DNA from: Secundilactobacillus malefermentans DSM 5705 = KCTC 3548
GTDB lineage: Bacteria > Bacillota > Bacilli > Lactobacillales > Lactobacillaceae
Length of the DNA stretch: 44,962 nucleotides
Assembly: GCF_001436395.1 (NCBI RefSeq)
Contig: NZ_AZGJ01000014.1
Location: 1-44,962 of the forward strand
Reading direction: 5' to 3'
Of the stretch, positions 11,231 to 42,286 are shown one piece after another. How positions within the stretch are numbered: the first letter of the stretch is position 1; each line of letters opens with the position of its first letter. The notes under the pieces are model-generated. The model was given only the letters and a program-made list of their open reading frames with translations. It had not been told where the DNA came from and did no database searches. Position numbers and translations under genes: made by a program.

Positions 11231-12106
11231 ATGTTAAGTAAGACGAAGCATTTATTGGTTGGTTTATTGGGAATCGCCGTCATCGTGCCTTTGGTATTGG
11301 CAGGATGCGGAAAAAAGGAGGGTAGTAATAGCAATGATGTCAGTGTTAATGGCGACAAAACGTTAATCGTTGCCACTTCTGGGACGTTGTACCCTACTTC
11401 GTACCACGATACAAAGGGAAACAAGTTAACTGGGTTCGACGTTGAGATTGTCAGAAACGTGGCAAAGGAAATGGGCTATAAAGTAAAGTTCAAGGAACTC
11501 AACGTGGATGGTCAATTAACCGCCGTCAAAACCGGTAAGGCTGACATGGCAGCAAACGACTTCGGTATCTCGCCACAACGGAAGAAACAGTTTACCCTAT
11601 CGACACCTTACAAGCACTCGTTTAACAGCTTGATGGTTCGAAAGAGTGACAATTCTGGAATTCATTCATGGGCGGATATCAAAGGTAAGAAGTCTGCTGG
11701 TGAAGCTGGAACCGGTTATCAACGACTTGCTAAGCAATTGGGTGCTAAGCTAGTCAACTACGATAACGTTTCAAATGACGTTTACCTTCGCGATGTTAAG
11801 AACGGGAAGACTGATTTTATTGCAAATGATTACTATCTTCAAAAATTGGCGCTCGCCGCAACACCTAACAGTGGTCTGAAGCTCATCAAGAACATGTACT
11901 TCAAGACGACTGACGATGGTAGTGGTGTTGGGATCATTATGAAAAAAGGAAACACCAAGCTGGATAAAAAAGTGAATGCTGCTCTAGCAAAACTTAAGAA
12001 ATCCGGTAAGCTCGCAAAGATTTCAAAGAAATTCTACGGCACGGATGTTTCAAAACAGCCTAAGGTCAAGATTTCAAAAACCTTCACGATTAAAAACGAT
12101 AATTAG
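11231..12106 (+). CDS. Polar amino acid ABC transporter substrate-binding lipoprotein
   Basis: A 291-residue family 3 solute-binding protein. A Lys-containing signal peptide ends in the lipobox LAGC (Cys26), so it is anchored to the outer face of the membrane. Features of the family include GTLYPTSYHD near 55, LTGFDVEIVRNVAKEMG, GKADMAANDFGISPQRKKQF and GEAGTGY. The cystine/cysteine or glutamine-type subgroup is likely, but the ligand cannot be assigned. The permease follows 22 bp downstream. No ATPase gene is next to it, so a shared ATPase must be encoded elsewhere. Confidence 0.92.
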   Translation: MLSKTKHLLVGLLGIAVIVPLVLAGCGKKEGSNSNDVSVNGDKTLIVATSGTLYPTSYHDTKGNKLTGFDVEIVRNVAKEMGYKVKFKELNVDGQLTAVKTGKADMAANDFGISPQRKKQFTLSTPYKHSFNSLMVRKSDNSGIHSWADIKGKKSAGEAGTGYQRLAKQLGAKLVNYDNVSNDVYLRDVKNGKTDFIANDYYLQKLALAATPNSGLKLIKNMYFKTTDDGSGVGIIMKKGNTKLDKKVNAALAKLKKSGKLAKISKKFYGTDVSKQPKVKISKTFTIKNDN

Positions 12107-12128
12107 CTTCAAGAATTGAGGTAAGTGG

Positions 12129-12794
12129 ATGAATTGGCTAAGTCATTTCTCAATTCCGAATTTCTTTGACGCACCGCTCGCCGTACAGTCCATTCCAAAA
12201 ATTTTAGCTGGCTTTCCCATTTCTGCTTTTCTAACGATTATCAGTTTTGCCCTCGCCCTCATTTTAGGATTGTTACTTACCTTGGCGCAGCTTAGTAAAT
12301 TTCGGATTTTACACTGGCCGGCTCGGGCTTTCATTTCGTTTATGCGTGGGGTTCCCATGCTGGTCGTTTTGTTCATCATCTATTTTGGCTTTCAAACAGA
12401 TGCAATTCCTGCAGCAATCATTTCATTCACAATTAGTTGTAGTGCATTCATCTCTGAGGTATTTCGCTCCTCATTTCTGGCCGTTAATAATGGTCAATGG
12501 GAAGCCACCTACTCGCTTGGTTTACCATACAGAAAGGTCATCTCAAAGGTGGTGTTACCACAGGCGTTTCGAGTTGCCATTCCGGCCCTGGGCAATATCC
12601 TGCTCGATTTGTTCAAGGGAACGTCTTTAGCCGCAATGATTACGGTCACCGATATGTTTATGGATGCCAAAATAGTGGCGGGTGCAAATTTAGATTATAT
12701 GACAATTTACATCACCATCGCCATTATTTATTGGTTCTTCTGCTGGCTGATTACAATCGGCCAGACCCAGTTGGAAAATCATTTAGCATTATAG
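12129..12794 (+). CDS. Polar amino acid ABC transporter permease
   Basis: A 221-residue HisM/GlnP-type integral membrane protein with about five helices. The FMRGVPMLVVLF segment and the EAA loop SLGLPYRKVISKVVLPQAFRVAIPALGN (about 136-163) are diagnostic and contact the ATPase. GAGGT precedes the ATG. It forms a unit with the binding protein just upstream and ends at a strong terminator. The missing ATPase is the oddity. Confidence 0.93.
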   Translation: MNWLSHFSIPNFFDAPLAVQSIPKILAGFPISAFLTIISFALALILGLLLTLAQLSKFRILHWPARAFISFMRGVPMLVVLFIIYFGFQTDAIPAAIISFTISCSAFISEVFRSSFLAVNNGQWEATYSLGLPYRKVISKVVLPQAFRVAIPALGNILLDLFKGTSLAAMITVTDMFMDAKIVAGANLDYMTIYITIAIIYWFFCWLITIGQTQLENHLAL

Positions 12795-14347: not shown

Positions 14348-14620
14348 CGCCAAAAAGCACCCTTAATCCACTTCTGGATTAAGGGTGCTTTGCACGGTAC
14401 CACCTTATATCGCTATTCCATTACTGAAATAGCCTCATCACGTACAGCAGAATACTGCGATACGCTAACACGATAATGGGTGTGCCCAGTGTAGATTACT
14501 ATTAGTTCACTACATCGCTCAAAAGGGATTTTCGTCATTATATTTTGCTTCCTCTCACCAACCGAAGCTCGCTTAAAAAATGATAATAACTACTCAACTT
14601 TCTCATAGCGTTTTAATTTA
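14348..14620 (-). promoter_or_regulatory. T-box leader controlling brnQ
   Basis: Minus-strand T-box. The conserved sequence AAGGTGGTACCGTGCA is at 14406-14391, directly before a terminator stem (14391-14352, GCACCCTTAATCCA arms with a U-run). A distal loop GGTGAGA and the GACGAAA segment that precedes the specifier are visible. The codon at 14529-14527 is AUC, so isoleucine is the likely effector. Uncharged tRNA would stabilise the antiterminator and allow brnQ expression. Confidence 0.9.
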
Positions 14621-18407: not shown

Positions 18408-18443
18408 CAAACTTAGGAGAACATTCGTAAAGGGGTGGTGAAG

Positions 18444-20114
18444 ATGCACCAACGTCGCATTTTAATGAGCATCGTATTTTTGAGTGTGAGTTTATTTATT
18501 GTGGGGTGTACCGCCGCTCCCGAAAAGCCTCAACAAAAGACTGACGATAAGGGCGTAATGACCCAAAGACAGGTCCTTAACATTTCCGAAACCAAACCAT
18601 TAGACACCATTGATATTTCAAAGGCAACCGGGTTTGGTAAGCTTGCTAATTCTACTGAGGGCCTTTACCGTCAGGGCGAAAGTGGCAGCATCGATCCTGG
18701 TTTGGCAAGTAAAACGGCCATCTCTAACAATGGTAGGCGCTACACGTTCACAATTAGGAAGAATGCTCGCTGGAGTAATGGTCAAGCCATTACAGCGCAG
18801 GATTTCGTCTATTCATGGAAACGAACGCTACATTCTGAAACTAAATCTGATTATACAGATTTATTCATTGGAATCAAAAATGCTGCTGCCATTGCCCACC
18901 ACCATATGTCGGTCAACCGGCTTGGCGTCAAAGCGCAGGGTAAGCGAACCTTAGTGGTAAATTTGGAACACCCAATTATCTATTTTCAATCGCTGATGGC
19001 TTACCCACTTTTTGCCCCGCAAAATGCCGAAATCATCAAAAAAAGTGGATCCCGCTTTGCATCAACTGCCAGTAACCAAGTCTATTCTGGGCCGTTCAAG
19101 CTCATTAACTGGAAAAAAGGCGACCAGTCGCGGACCCTTGTCCCTAATCCTTACTATTGGGACCGAAAGCACGTTTATCTTTCCAAAATATCAATCAGAA
19201 CCATTTCGAGTCCCTCTAGGTCGCTATCTTTGTACAGGGACCGAAAATTAGATTCAGTCGAACTGATTGGCAGACAAATCAAAAATAATTTTAGACGAAT
19301 GGATTATACGATTCGTCCCTACTCAATGATGATGTTTCTCTCGTATAATTTTAGGAATTCAACGGGCAGTCAACGTCAGCTACTTAATAACAAAGACTTT
19401 CGACTAGCTTTGTCCCATGCCATAGATCGAAAAAAATTAATCTATGACGGATTGCAAAATGTTTCATTAGCACCGCGTGGCTTTGTCACAACTGGCCTAA
19501 GCCGGGAAGTGAAATCGGGTGCTGATTTTGCGGGTGTCCAGCGTGCTTCAAGCACCGTAACCGGTTCAACCAAGAAGGCAAAGACTGAATGGCAGAATGC
19601 ACTCAACCAACTCAATCGAAAATCAGCAACGATTAAAATTGTCGTGGTCAATTCCCAATTAAATCACCTTCTGGCAACTAACTTGAAGGAGCAGCTTGAA
19701 AATAACCTGCCGGGACTAACCATCAAATTTAATTTTGAGCCAACCACAGAAGCGGTCACTAACACCTTTAAATCAGGAAATGCCGATCTCATGATTTCTG
19801 GTTGGGGCGCCGATTTTTCGGATCCAATCTCATTTCTTCAGATTATGTCCTCGCGCAATCCCTATAATTATGGTGGCTGGACAAATAAGGAATACGACAA
19901 GCTTGTCTTATCAGCCATCAGTAATTCCGACAATGACGCTAGTCAACGTTGGAACACGATGCTAAAAGCCGATGAAATTTTGATGAAGGATCAGGGTGTG
20001 ACCCCGCTTTATCAGCAAGTCCACTCATACTTAGTTAATCCGCATTTGAATGGCGTTGTCTTCAACTCAACGGGTGTGTCTGCGGATTATAAGGGCGCTT
20101 ATTTTGTGAAATAA
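18444..20114 (+). CDS. Oligopeptide-binding lipoprotein OppA-like (orphan)
   Basis: A family 5 solute-binding protein of about 556 residues. The signal peptide ends in the lipobox IVGC (Cys22 from this start). The family hallmarks are the early LDTIDISKATGFG, a W-SNGQAITAQDFVYSWKR stretch near 115 and WGADFSDPISFLQ near 455. It captures peptides outside the membrane for an Opp ABC importer, but no oppBCDF genes are adjacent. GTG codons at 18435 and 18438 are in frame; AGGGG favours the ATG at 18444. It is paralogous to the product at 23723. Confidence 0.93.
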   Translation: MHQRRILMSIVFLSVSLFIVGCTAAPEKPQQKTDDKGVMTQRQVLNISETKPLDTIDISKATGFGKLANSTEGLYRQGESGSIDPGLASKTAISNNGRRYTFTIRKNARWSNGQAITAQDFVYSWKRTLHSETKSDYTDLFIGIKNAAAIAHHHMSVNRLGVKAQGKRTLVVNLEHPIIYFQSLMAYPLFAPQNAEIIKKSGSRFASTASNQVYSGPFKLINWKKGDQSRTLVPNPYYWDRKHVYLSKISIRTISSPSRSLSLYRDRKLDSVELIGRQIKNNFRRMDYTIRPYSMMMFLSYNFRNSTGSQRQLLNNKDFRLALSHAIDRKKLIYDGLQNVSLAPRGFVTTGLSREVKSGADFAGVQRASSTVTGSTKKAKTEWQNALNQLNRKSATIKIVVVNSQLNHLLATNLKEQLENNLPGLTIKFNFEPTTEAVTNTFKSGNADLMISGWGADFSDPISFLQIMSSRNPYNYGGWTNKEYDKLVLSAISNSDNDASQRWNTMLKADEILMKDQGVTPLYQQVHSYLVNPHLNGVVFNSTGVSADYKGAYFVK

Positions 20115-23722: not shown

Positions 23723-25363
23723 TTAATTAATATAGGCGTACTTATAACTCCACTGAGTTCCAGCGGTGTTATGCACAATTCCCTTTACGTCAGAACGTTG
23801 TAGGTATGACGTTTCATTTTGATAAAGAGGGGTCATCCCTTGATCTTCACTAAATAAACGACTTGCCTCAAGTAAATCTTGCCAACGTTTGCTTGGGTTA
23901 TTGGCATCTTGGTCATCGGCTCTTTTGACTAATTTATCGTAGGCCTTATTACTATACTTCCCATAATTGTATGACGTTCCAGTCATTGGAATCTGGAGGA
24001 ATGAGATTGGATCATTGAAATCTGCACCCCATCCAGAGATTGTAATATCAAATTGGCCCTTTTGACCGTACTGATTAGCTGTTTGCGTTGGAACGGCCTG
24101 GATATCTAAAGTAAAGCCAGGTAATACCTTTTCAAATTGTGCTTTAAGGTACTGGGTAACTGCACTCGTTGACGGATCATCATTTGCCGCAGTAATGGTC
24201 ATCTTAAGCTTCTTTTCCCCAATAGCCTTCAGCCCTGATTTCCAATAGTTAGCCGCCAACTTTTCATTATGCGTCACTGTGTTTTTCACAGCTTGTCCCT
24301 TTGAGAAATTCTCGCCATTGTAGCTTGCCAACCCACTGGGAACGAATCCATTAGGCACGGTTGAACCGTCACCAAGAACCTTCTTGGTCAGTTGCTTTCT
24401 GTCTATTGCAAGAGAGAATGCACGGCGAATGTCTCGGTTATTAAGCGCCTTTCGATTCGTTGCATCAGGATCTTTGAAATTATACTTCAAATAGAAGATT
24501 TGTGAATATGGGTAAGATTTGAACTGTGCATCATCTTTGTAATTTTTAACTTGTTCACTTGAAAGTTCAGTTAAATCAAGCTTCTTTTGACGGAATAAAT
24601 CTAGTCCAGTTGTTGGACTCGAAACCACTGTGAAGTTCACTTTCTGAAGCTTTACAGCTTTTTTATCCCAGTACTGATTATTTTTTACGAAGGACCATTT
24701 GTTACCAGTTCCGTTCCAGTTCTTGATCTTAAAGGGTCCGGAATAAACCATATACTGTGACTTTGTGGCGTATTTCTTACCATATTTTTCGACCACTTTT
24801 TGATTTTGGGGTGCAAATAGTGGATATGCCATCAAAATTTTAAAGTAGGCAATCGGCTTGTCCAAATGAATGACAACCGTTTTACTATCAGTTGCTTCAA
24901 TGCCTAATTTATCAGGGTTCAATTTCCCTTCATTAATCTTATCTGCATTTTTGATTCCTTCAAACAGGTAAGCATATTGCGATTTTGTACTAGGGGTCAA
25001 TGTGCGGCGCCATGAATAGACAAAATCTTGAGCGGTAATCTTGTCCCCGTTGCTCCATTTGGCGTTCCGAAGCTTAAATGTCCAGGTTTTACCGTCCTTT
25101 GATTCAGTTGCCGATTTCGCAAGTCCCTTTGTTGACTTCCCATTTTTACCCAAACGGAAGAAACTCTCATAGACGTTACCTGTTTGTCCATAACCCGTGG
25201 CCTTTGCCAAATCAATTGTTGGCAGTGGTGCCTCAGCACTGAGGTTCAGAACTTGTGGCTTACTTGCTGTGCTACTTTCATTACCACAAGCGGTCAGAAA
25301 TGCCCCTAATCCAACAACTGCAATTGCAACTAAACTACCCTTTATCCACTTTATATTTATCAT
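23723..25363 (-). CDS. Oligopeptide-binding lipoprotein OppA-like behind Cys-rich leader ORFs
   Basis: A 546-residue family 5 solute-binding protein with signal peptide and lipobox LTAC (Cys26). It shares most motifs with the product at 18444 (LPTIDLAKATGYG, W-SNGDKITAQDFVYSWRR, WGADFNDPISFLQ), so they are paralogues. No permease or ATPase genes are adjacent. GGGG before the ATG serves as the ribosome site. Its leader of about 330 nt contains a near-consensus promoter, short ORFs with runs of three Cys codons and a terminator-like hairpin. I infer control by cysteine supply, and hence a role in importing cysteine-containing peptides, possibly glutathione. The ligand is not proven. Confidence 0.94.
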   Translation of the reverse strand: MINIKWIKGSLVAIAVVGLGAFLTACGNESSTASKPQVLNLSAEAPLPTIDLAKATGYGQTGNVYESFFRLGKNGKSTKGLAKSATESKDGKTWTFKLRNAKWSNGDKITAQDFVYSWRRTLTPSTKSQYAYLFEGIKNADKINEGKLNPDKLGIEATDSKTVVIHLDKPIAYFKILMAYPLFAPQNQKVVEKYGKKYATKSQYMVYSGPFKIKNWNGTGNKWSFVKNNQYWDKKAVKLQKVNFTVVSSPTTGLDLFRQKKLDLTELSSEQVKNYKDDAQFKSYPYSQIFYLKYNFKDPDATNRKALNNRDIRRAFSLAIDRKQLTKKVLGDGSTVPNGFVPSGLASYNGENFSKGQAVKNTVTHNEKLAANYWKSGLKAIGEKKLKMTITAANDDPSTSAVTQYLKAQFEKVLPGFTLDIQAVPTQTANQYGQKGQFDITISGWGADFNDPISFLQIPMTGTSYNYGKYSNKAYDKLVKRADDQDANNPSKRWQDLLEASRLFSEDQGMTPLYQNETSYLQRSDVKGIVHNTAGTQWSYKYAYIN

Positions 25364-25401
25364 AATTAATCCCCAATTCTGACTGATTTATTTTTTATTC
25401 G

Positions 25402-25446
25402 CTATATGGAACCCCTCAACATCCTGCAACAACACGCTTTTTTCAT
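25402..25446 (-). CDS. Leader peptide with CCC motif, nearest to oppA
   Basis: A 14-codon ORF reading MKKACCCRMLRGSI, with GGAGG (25462-25458) eleven bases before the ATG. Three consecutive Cys codons (TGT TGT TGC) occur at positions 5-7. It ends 38 bp before oppA. Together with the second CCC ORF further upstream it looks like a cysteine-sensing leader rather than a functional peptide. Confidence 0.65.
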   Translation of the reverse strand: MKKACCCRMLRGSI

Positions 25447-25465
25447 AGCGTTATTCACCTCCAAG

Positions 25466-25519
25466 AACAAGAAAGAGACCCCCAAATACCGGCACGAACA
25501 CCGACACTTGAGGGTCTCT
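25466..25519 (-). terminator. Attenuator-like hairpin in the oppA leader
   Basis: AGAGACCC (25519-25512 on the minus strand) pairs with GGGTCTCT (25481-25474), followed by the U-rich TTTCTTGTTCTT. A second copy of GACCCTC upstream (25592-25586) could compete for the same GGGGGTC segment (25483-25477), which would give an alternative fold. Confidence 0.6.
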
Positions 25520-25565
25520 TAGCTGCATCAATCAATTTATCCGTTGGTTACAAACGGCTAATAAA

Positions 25566-25637
25566 TTAATTTTGAAGCACAAAAAGAGGGTCCACTTCAG
25601 CGTTAACGTACGCAAATTGTGCACAACCAAAACACAT
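25566..25637 (-). CDS. Short Cys-containing ORF overlapping the leader region
   Basis: A 23-codon ORF starting MCFGCAQFAYV, beginning four bases after the stop of the MLMQCCC ORF. Its own ribosome site is poor, so translation would depend on coupling. It adds two Cys codons to the cluster. It may be fortuitous. Confidence 0.35.
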   Translation of the reverse strand: MCFGCAQFAYVNAEVDPLFVLQN

Positions 25638-25640
25638 ATT

Positions 25641-25664
25641 TTAACAACAGCATTGCATTAACAT
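25641..25664 (-). CDS. Leader peptide MLMQCCC
   Basis: A seven-codon ORF, ATG TTA ATG CAA TGC TGT TGT TAA, preceded by AAAGGGGG at eight bases and placed about 30 nt after the predicted transcription start. It ends in three Cys codons, the form expected of an amino-acid-sensing leader peptide. Confidence 0.7.
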   Translation of the reverse strand: MLMQCCC

Positions 25665-25701
25665 TGAAGTTTCCCCCTTTCTCTCATAATTTATTAACCT
25701 A

Positions 25702-25730
25702 ATATTACCGACCAATTGCCTGATTGTCAA
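25702..25730 (-). promoter_or_regulatory. Near-consensus promoter of the Cys-leader oppA transcript
   Basis: Minus-strand TTGACA (25730-25725), exactly 17 bp, TAATAT (25707-25702). Confidence 0.8.
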
Positions 25731-25746
25731 TAAACAAATTTCTCGT

Positions 25747-25775
25747 TTGACACCTCGTTTTGAAAGCGTCATTAT
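25747..25775 (+). promoter_or_regulatory. Promoter of the PRD-like regulator gene
   Basis: TTGACA (25747-25752), 17-bp spacer, CATTAT (25770-25775), divergent from the oppA leader promoter. Confidence 0.5.
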
Positions 25776-25829
25776 AAAAGGTGAAACGTTACACAAGCAT
25801 TTTTATTAAATTGATTGGGGATGACCAAC

Positions 25830-26450
25830 ATGGCAGTAGACAGTATTAATAGAGAAAATGAGCTAACTTTATGGCTATTAATAAGCTCTCCAAGGCCAGT
25901 CACAACTAGTTGGATTCTCGACTACTATGACATTGATCTCAATGCACTTCATCAAGATTTGAGCGTCATTGGTGATTTCACCAAGACATTCAGACTTACT
26001 TTAAATCCGGAATTCGATCAGCTTTCGATTTTTGGCCATGAAAATGATATTCAGCAAGGGATTATGTTTATCCTGATGGATTTATATTCCCAAACAAATG
26101 GCCAGCAAGACCATCTTCCGCAAACACCTTTTGCAAAACAACGGGTCATTGCAAAAATTCATGATGGCGTTAAAAATTTAGCGGCCTTTTCTGATTTAAA
26201 CGAATCCAGTCAGGTCGACATTACCAATTACCTTTGGACACTAACAATGCGTTATCATTATGGAACTGTTAAGCACGCGGCGTTCCAGCAGTTGTTCACA
26301 GATAAACAGGCCAATATGATTCAGGAGTATGATAAGTTGTTTAATTGGTCAAAGGGTATTTTGCATGATTTGGCCCAGCTTTATAAGGATTTTGAGTTTC
26401 CTGAATTGGAAGTGTATTTGCTGACGTTGAGGGTGTGGCTGAATAAGTAA
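25830..26450 (+). CDS. Putative regulator with HTH and PRD-like helices (uncertain)
   Basis: A soluble protein of about 206 residues. The N-terminal 75 residues read like a BglG/Mga-type helix-turn-helix pair (LWLLISSPRPVTTSWILDYY, then LSIFGHENDIQQGIMFIL, comparable with the Y-GnE-iR segment before PRD1). The rest is helical and PRD-like but lacks a clear phosphorylated-His signature. It is far shorter than full BglG-type antiterminators. GGGG lies nine bases before the ATG at 25830; TTG 25815 and ATG 25821 are less likely. Divergent from the Cys-leader oppA, so a regulatory link is possible. The family call is tentative. Confidence 0.6.
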   Translation: MAVDSINRENELTLWLLISSPRPVTTSWILDYYDIDLNALHQDLSVIGDFTKTFRLTLNPEFDQLSIFGHENDIQQGIMFILMDLYSQTNGQQDHLPQTPFAKQRVIAKIHDGVKNLAAFSDLNESSQVDITNYLWTLTMRYHYGTVKHAAFQQLFTDKQANMIQEYDKLFNWSKGILHDLAQLYKDFEFPELEVYLLTLRVWLNK

Positions 26451-37917: not shown

Positions 37918-38180
37918 AAAAACGCCCTCAGTAATCGAAATTACTAAGGACGCTTTCAACGCGGTACCACCCTAATTGCTGGCTTGCGCCAACCTCTCAC
38001 ACACGGCCACTTGGCGATGTGTTTGACCGTTATCGGGGCCACCGGATTTTTTTATCAGCTCAAATCAACTTTTGGATATAAGTCATGGCACCTTCCCACT
38101 AACTGGCGCTCCCTTTGCATGGCTTAAATCGTCATCCTTGATTCTTCATTGCTTGTCGTTTAATTTGTTTTTAATGATTC
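37918..38180 (-). promoter_or_regulatory. T-box leader controlling the amidohydrolase
   Basis: Minus-strand T-box. TAGGGTGGTACCGCGT lies around 37976-37961, followed by a terminator whose GCGTCCTTAGTAAT arm and long U-run occupy 37954-37917. Stem I base AATCAA/TTGATT and a K-turn-like TTGAG are visible. The specifier is unclear: the segment CCAAAAG before the lower stem allows Lys (AAA/AAG) or Pro (CCA). Confidence 0.88.
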
Positions 38181-41982: not shown

Positions 41983-42286
41983 GACGAAAAAAGCACCCTA
42001 ACTCTCATTTCTGAAAGTTAAGGGTGCTATTGCACTTTACCACCTTAATTTGCCAATTTATCGCTAAATTAGCCTCATCCTGTACAGCCAAATTGGCGAT
42101 ACAGTCATGCTGTAACGGGCATCCCCGACGCAACCTACTTGAATTCAGCGCGCAACTTTAAAGAATGATGGTCGCAATCATGACTGTATCCCGTTTACAC
42201 CAACTCGGGACTCTCTATAACAATCGGATAAAAGGATCGTTTCTTATAATCGTCTGTTAAATCTCATCTAAATTTAATTTATGAAC
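41983..42286 (-). promoter_or_regulatory. T-box leader before the 36-residue ORF
   Basis: Minus-strand T-box with AAGGTGGTAAAGTGCA (about 42045-42030, diverging from ACCGCG) and a terminator with GCACCCTTAACTTTC and GAAAGTTAGGGTGC-type arms (42027-41992) plus a U-run. The distal loop GGTGTAAAC is visible, and AUC followed by A lies just before the lower stem, so isoleucine is a candidate effector. Confidence 0.82.

Follow-up and report, generated by a model that had tools for sequence, protein, structure and literature searches.

A putative cysteine-tuned leader peptide attenuator before an orphan oppA gene of Lactobacillaceae

Leader-peptide attenuation is a textbook mechanism in Proteobacteria. 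In Firmicutes, where T-boxes do that job, it had hardly been seen as of a 2010 survey (PMC2965389). The nearest described case to the leader considered here, set beside it by description, is uORFC-8-2, which precedes cysS in Rhodobacterales (PMC8632094). Like the oppA leader it is described as having two tandem conserved Cys codons in an upstream open reading frame (uORF), two stems and an intrinsic terminator, and ribosome-mediated attenuation by Cys-tRNA has been proposed for it (PMC8632094). The mycobacterial polycysteine uORFs (Canestrari 2020, cited in PMC9031893 and PMC13236596) are alike in their contiguous Cys codons and in an expression set by cysteine supply. In lactobacilli, the Met/Cys T-boxes described in PMC6004538 serve the same physiological task and are terminator-based, some of them lying before related transporters.

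Here we consider the leader of an oppA gene in Secundilactobacillus malefermentans DSM 5705 = KCTC 3548, within a window that comprises the whole 44,962-nucleotide stretch of DNA analysed (contig NZ_AZGJ01000014.1). Comparison with relatives indicates that this leader is very probably a cysteine-tuned member of the trp/his type of ribosome-mediated transcription attenuators. Three of the five features of such an attenuator are found directly, namely an SD-led short ORF, a run of Cys codons and an intrinsic terminator before the gene, and a mutually exclusive antiterminator, predicted from base pairing, is supported in relatives.

The oppA leader and its cysteine codons

The gene itself (23723-25363, minus strand) encodes an orphan SBP_bac_5 lipoprotein, as judged by Pfam and by its place in a tree. 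Its description as an orphan in an earlier sequence-only reading is borne out, there being no Opp permease or ATPase look-alike among the ORFs of at least 100 aa between 20 and 32 kb (by eye, with Pfam run on eight window proteins). The leader lies on the same strand and begins with a promoter recognized by eye (25702-25730), with -35 TTGACA at 25730-25725, a 17-base spacer and -10 TAATAT at 25707-25702. From the end of this by-eye -10 it is 38 bases to the start of uORF1 (25641-25664), which has a ribosome site AAAGGGGG (25673-25680) and encodes MLMQCCC, with Cys codons TGC TGT TGT at 25652-25644 and the stop TAA at 25643-25641. It is followed in the same frame by uORF1b MCFGCAQFAYVNAEVDPLFVLQN (25566-25637), whose ATG is separated from the uORF1 stop by one codon. 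An intrinsic terminator hairpin AAGAGACCC...GGGTCTCTT with a T-rich tail TCTTGTTCTT (25473-25520, -31.1 kcal/mol) comes next, and 3' of it lies uORF2 MKKACCCRMLRGSI (25402-25446), a CCC-bearing frame that has the ribosome site GGAGG at 25462-25458 and ends 38 bases ahead of oppA. The promoter, MLMQCCC with its ribosome site, the coupled second ORF, the hairpin and uORF2 with its GGAGG had all been named by the sequence-only reading, and each is found on the minus strand where that reading put it.

On both strands of the 45-kb window, the ATG-started Cys-Cys-Cys ORFs of 4-45 codons are uORF1, which can also be read from alternative starts, and uORF2 only. Dinucleotide shuffles of the 382-base leader gave at least one such ORF in 23/4000 cases and at least two in 1/4000. 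A search of 25340-25860 for T-box RF00230 and other Rfam leader families returned no match at gathering score. The uORF1 frame is homologous to MQMLMSMCCECNCMPCAQLADVNAGVDLLFVS of S. oryzae, a single ORF in that species. Because S. oryzae has the same frame unbroken, the leader peptide, longer there, appears to be split in two in the window (its stop being that of one strain), with uORF1b as the counterpart of the later part of the longer S. oryzae uORF. At the position of uORF2, S. oryzae has MAKSCCCWMMTKN. The claim of two Cys-triplet ORFs thus stands for the window, but of the Secundilactobacillus loci read S. oryzae alone shares the CCC of uORF2, and we rejected uORF2 as a family-wide part of the leader, its CCC being confined to these two.

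An OppA scan of species genomes yielded 115 relatives, of which the best 80 of 115 were fetched and, with the window, make up 81 leaders. An SD-preceded ORF with adjacent Cys codons is present in 78 of the 81. The same criterion was matched by 3/209 leaders of other genes at these loci, 12/800 random segments and 0/81 antisense leaders, and a CCC run occurs in 19/81 leaders versus 0/800 random segments. The Cys core takes the form MCCSMC in Lentilactobacillus, ACCEC or ACCQC in Levilactobacillus, ECCC in Lactobacillus, MMMCCPCC in Lactiplantibacillus, FCCC in Furfurilactobacillus and CECCC in Apilactobacillus, and the peptide outside it is unconserved between genera. The spacing from start to CC in Levilactobacillus is 42 bases in 21/26 leaders and otherwise 39, 45 or 48, all in frame by selection. 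Within the window's own genus an OppA match at 1e-150 or below is found in only 6/15 genomes (7 matches), and six of these seven leaders have an ATG-started CC uORF. The exception, L132, keeps a Cys-rich frame VQCAMCMCLTC with ACG where the start is expected. The Cys codons of orthologous leaders had been named beforehand as a point on which the sequence-only reading could fail; they are conserved, and its proposal of ribosome-mediated sensing of Cys-tRNA gains support from the SD-preceded CC ORF in 77 of 80 relatives (best 80 of 115). Other small Cys-bearing ORFs follow the terminator in Pediococcus L070 and L075, as does a CC ORF in Lentilactobacillus L005. One locus, L060, is titled Faecalicatena absiana and groups with Lactobacillus delbrueckii relatives, and is likely mislabelled or contaminated.

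Terminator, antiterminator and proposed mechanism

A terminator was found by scan 3' of the Cys codons in 73/78 Cys-uORF leaders. The scan found none after the uORF in L022, L023, L048, L078 and L081. The terminator of L048 sits just past the scanned stretch, those of L078 (by eye) and L081 (by scan) precede the uORF, and no terminator is seen by eye in L022 or L023. The Levilactobacillus locus L022 has kept its Cys uORF beside a degenerate-looking terminator region. Across 26 distinct rows of Levilactobacillus the terminator reaches 95.9% pairing and shows 31 double-change cells versus 10.2 in shuffles (0/500), and across 13 rows of Lentilactobacillus it is 86.6% paired, with 21 double-change cells versus 8.8 (0/500).

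A second, exclusive pairing, the proposed antiterminator, links a segment starting 13-50 bases past the first CC codon (67/73 leaders) with the terminator's 5' arm and loop. In Levilactobacillus 79.2% of the cells of this antiterminator are paired and 15 show a double change versus 7.4 (0/500 shuffles); when pairs rather than cells showing a double change are counted, the result is 52/500. In Lentilactobacillus 96.1% are paired versus 31-43% when slid, with no double change and with 29/500 for cells paired. Covariation of the leader in related genomes, which had been proposed as a check, is found for the terminator in both genera and for the antiterminator in Levilactobacillus. Taken leader by leader, the duplex of region 2 (the 5' strand) with region 3 (its partner in the terminator) ranks at 10/200 or better in 27/73 leaders when region 2 is shuffled and in 33/73 when region 3 is shuffled. 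With region 2 shuffled, leaders at or below 10/200 number 12/13 in Lentilactobacillus, 3/3 in Apilactobacillus, 8/26 in Levilactobacillus, 1/3 in Secundilactobacillus, 1/11 in Lactobacillus, 0/7 in Lactiplantibacillus and 0/3 in Furfurilactobacillus.

For the window, duplex prediction and the nascent fold place region 2 of the proposed antiterminator at 25581-25620 (minus strand, as are the elements that follow), with the core AACGCTGA at 25604-25597 and CTCTT at 25588-25584. Its partner would be the region 3 core TCGGTGTT (25497-25504), within the terminator 5' arm and loop, and a predicted stem-loop in the nascent RNA (25524-25579) would join the two regions. The window duplex, at -16.8 against a shuffle mean of -14.3, is not significant, being equalled by 30/200 and 28/200 shuffles; that of S. 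oryzae reaches -21.2 (1/200). Region 2 is well conserved between the window and S. oryzae, and GTTARCRCTGA in Lentilactobacillus resembles it. When the window RNA is cut just ahead of the 3' arm and the stretch under a ribosome stalled at the first Cys codon is masked, folding predicts the long-range antiterminator; including the 3' arm gives the terminator instead. Since the terminator greatly exceeds the antiterminator in stability, such a switch must be kinetic. A different switch had been read from the letters, in which two GACCCTC copies (25592-25586 and 25516-25510) compete for one GGGGGTC (25483-25477). It finds no support, as the first copy is GACCTTC and the 3' arm GGGGACTT in S. oryzae, and several genera share a different pairing, that of a AACGCUGA-like with a UCGGUGUU-like segment.

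In the mechanism we propose, ample Cys-tRNA would let the ribosome clear the Cys codons, region 3 would pair with the 3' arm to form the terminator, and oppA would stay untranscribed. When Cys-tRNA is scarce the ribosome would stall at the Cys codons and leave region 2 free to pair with the terminator 5' arm and loop, so that oppA is read. OppA would then bring sulphur-bearing peptides to a shared Opp permease. Translation of the uORF, stalling, antitermination, induction and the OppA ligand are steps that we infer.

Met-type T-boxes and alternative readings of the leader

Three of the leaders, all from Liquorilactobacillus, are without a Cys ORF and have a T-box instead. That of L018 passes the Rfam threshold (94.1 vs 93), and those of L016 and L030 are identified by motif only. 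At two Lacticaseibacillus loci a T-box is followed by a Cys uORF, the one at L081 passing Rfam (101.2) and the one at L078 being identified by motif. All five T-boxes (L016, L018, L030, L078 and L081) have GAAGAUGR as their specifier region. In the window's own genome GAAGAUGR T-boxes stand before luxS-, two metE-like and metN-like genes (named by eye from N-termini), and because the same motif precedes such genes we take the oppA T-boxes to be Met-type. The T-box bulge UGGU fits a tRNA with A before CCA, as expected for Met but not for Cys. A tree built from 92 OppA sequences groups the window protein with 78 relatives in a single clade (79 rows, support 98), in which the Liquorilactobacillus OppAs are nested beside that of Ligilactobacillus acidipiscis, whose leader has a Cys uORF. 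The frames of L078, L081 and L093 as read stop early and were left out of the tree, so the two tandem T-box/uORF loci are unplaced in it. Together, the T-box loci and the tree thus point to one orthologous OppA whose gene follows a Cys leader in most of the genera sampled but a Met-type T-box in one other genus. At L078 and L081, a Met-type T-box with its terminator followed by a Cys uORF could possibly provide two-input control.

Since a Met-type T-box precedes the same OppA in some relatives, methionine must be considered too, and the leader might gauge methionine and cysteine together, the Met codons beside the Cys codons making it a general sulphur-amino-acid gauge. Consistent with this, in-frame ATG codons (start excluded) are in excess (158/2439 codons vs 28 and 95/2361 in the other frames), peptides such as MMMCCPCC, LMCCSMC and MLMQCCC combine the two residues, and the Met-type T-box occurs both before the orthologous OppA of Liquorilactobacillus and in tandem with the Cys uORF in L078 and L081. 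We nevertheless consider a joint gauge rather unlikely. Levilactobacillus, Apilactobacillus and Pediococcus have another frame with as many ATGs or more, Met content differs by genus whereas Cys is the constant feature, and additional ATGs near the start may be alternative starts.

Control that is mainly translational, with stalling on uORF1 or uORF2 exposing the ribosome site of whichever frame follows, in the manner of mycobacterial Cys uORFs, would make sense of the CCC-bearing uORF2 past the terminator, 38 bases before oppA and conserved with S. oryzae. It would also suit the predicted folds, in which the oppA start codon is partly paired and its GGGGA lies in a hairpin loop or is partly paired, and the four leaders without a terminator after the uORF (L022, L023, L078 and L081). 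Yet in 73/78 leaders by scan uORF1 and oppA are separated by a terminator, which covaries in both genera tested, and mainly translational control is improbable; uORF2 may nevertheless contribute a translational share. Still less credible is a functional peptide (a signal, metal binder or thiol sensor) in place of a codon gauge, which could explain several Cys in each SD-preceded frame. The window product has 7 residues, the sequence beyond the Cys core differs between genera, the reading frame of the tail past the core differs by species in Levilactobacillus while the core CCxC is kept, and two unlike peptide families stand before two gene kinds. The strong conservation of the Levilactobacillus core GCATGTTGCGAATGTAAC at the DNA level is what one would expect if the Cys codons were a chance product of a conserved UGU/UGC-rich RNA structure, but this explanation is the least probable of all given the control counts (3/209, 12/800 and 0/81), the persistence of the Cys core across genera despite differing flanking DNA, and the use of both TGT and TGC at the Cys codons of Lentilactobacillus.

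OppA paralogues, a second carrier and known systems

The window's genome holds 15 OppA matches and a single OppC_N match (L084-L098, L215). Among these 15 genes only the window oppA has a CC leader ORF within 420 bases; six other paralogues carry T-box motifs with differing specifiers, of which two are of Met type, one has an Ile codon and another is perhaps for Val. Fifteen OppAs, one OppC_N and differing gauges would together suggest one permease served by several binding proteins, each with its own amino-acid gauge. One paralogue (18435-20114, plus strand), fast-evolving and of odd composition, forms a long sister branch to the Cys-leader clade and lies about 3.6 kb from the window oppA without its leader. 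A T-box with an Ile codon (14378-14615, minus strand) stands before a BrnQ-like gene (by eye) and immediately 3' of a cspA-type gene that has an Rfam thermoregulator match, and two more T-box matches fall below the Rfam cut-off (42017-42259 and 37943-38158, both minus strand). We also considered the transporter at 11231-12794 as a possible cystine importer; by eye, the 330 bases ahead of it show neither a T-box nor a Cys uORF.

Searches of OppA against PDB and protein families returned general OppA/SBP_bac_5 likeness only, with GsiB among many matches below the cut-off, and it is the regulation by Cys that points to cysteine-bearing peptides as the ligand. The window genome and S. oryzae have only weak cysK-family matches (E ~1e-5), against a strong match in 11/14 other members of the genus, which suggests that both need external cysteine and are possibly cysteine auxotrophs. 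In L. plantarum, 5PSeq reveals ribosome pauses at Cys codons that were attributed to a shortage of free cysteine in the medium (PMC10234816), so that an input signal for a Cys gauge exists. E. coli Opp is reported to import reduced glutathione (PMC11719327), and Listeria CtaP and OppABCDF to supply cysteine (PMC9239247), and on these grounds glutathione is a possible ligand. Import of Cys peptides or glutathione by the window OppA is thus plausible by analogy. The Met-type T-boxes, together with the excess of in-frame Met codons, make methionine a candidate nutrient as well. In sum, a likely nutrient (cysteine, perhaps methionine) can be assigned to one of 15 OppA-like proteins, a class for which sequence alone cannot give ligands.

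The best experimental support for the family's cysteine leader comes from an operon other than oppA, because cysK2-ctl1-cysE2 of L. paracasei FAM18149 is published as cysteine-repressed (log2 ~-3, methionine-deficient versus cysteine-deficient medium; PMC6004538). The passages of PMC6004538 on this operon report it to be without a T-box and to have high 5'UTR coverage, give a Rho-independent terminator motif AAGGGCGCGAAA-N16-TTTCGCGCCCTT, and call the mechanism of repression "yet to be discovered". We searched for the cysK family in 41 genomes, in 20 genomes behind named loci and in 30 from the genus to which the L. thailandensis locus belongs; of 32 plasmid records, two were fetched. An SD-preceded Cys ORF (e.g. 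MSQSMFNAINCCCRTTRFWRCSAC) and a terminator are present in 28/28 assembled leaders of the lower-scoring, cysK2-type gene, a set that was assembled after seeing the matches, includes the near copies L212-L214, and excludes L183 and L211 (broken or cut) and six matches of about 250-310 bits without a given locus. One of the 28 (L155) is from another family of the order. The leaders of higher-scoring cysK genes (L135-L147, L165-L170 and L195-L206) showed no such SD-led CC ORF, as checked partly by script and partly by eye, some frames with CC being listed among the leaders judged by eye. On the L. paracasei plasmid pBD-II the exact published motif lies 3' of the Cys ORF. In L214, the leader upstream of 3345, the palindrome following the Cys leader peptide, which had been published as possibly regulatory, is the operon's terminator. 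The 2:3 duplex ranks at or below 10/200 mononucleotide shuffles in 2/28 cysK2 leaders, and we dropped the claim of a significant antiterminator for this set, 26/28 missing that mark. The Cys leader peptide is a specific candidate for the mechanism behind cysteine repression of cysK2-ctl1-cysE2, which is linked to the sulphur flavour of cheese.

Taken jointly, these observations allow a broader reading that we offer tentatively, as somewhat short of probable. Lactobacillaceae would have a cysteine-tRNA leader-peptide regulon in which at least two unlike peptides, those of oppA and cysK2-ctl-cysE, are interchangeable or stacked with Met T-boxes, and this regulon would be part of a scheme in which many orphan peptide-binding proteins share one Opp permease, each switched on when a particular amino acid is short. 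The cell would in this way turn a single importer to peptides that abound in whichever amino acid it lacks.

Full-text searching of the open literature turned up, among the matches listed, no account of a cysteine leader peptide from Lactobacillaceae. The described systems differ from the oppA leader in distinct ways. uORFC-8-2 belongs to alphaproteobacteria and to a cysteinyl-tRNA synthetase gene, and the passages of its account that describe it mention neither a transporter nor alternation with T-boxes (PMC8632094). The mycobacterial polycysteine uORFs are described as having a leaderless start and acting by translational control in Actinobacteria (PMC9031893, PMC13236596), whereas the window uORF is SD-led and has an intrinsic terminator. 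The Met/Cys T-boxes of lactobacilli are tRNA-binding RNAs without a uORF (PMC6004538), and none is present at the window leader. The His leader peptides of hisS/hisZ in bacilli are alike in being Firmicute leader peptides where relatives have a T-box, and unlike in that they concern histidine and tRNA-synthetase paralogues (PMC2965389). Set against these systems, a Cys leader found in most Lactobacillaceae genera sampled, and alternating or stacking with Met-type T-boxes, represents an unusually clear exchange of sensors.
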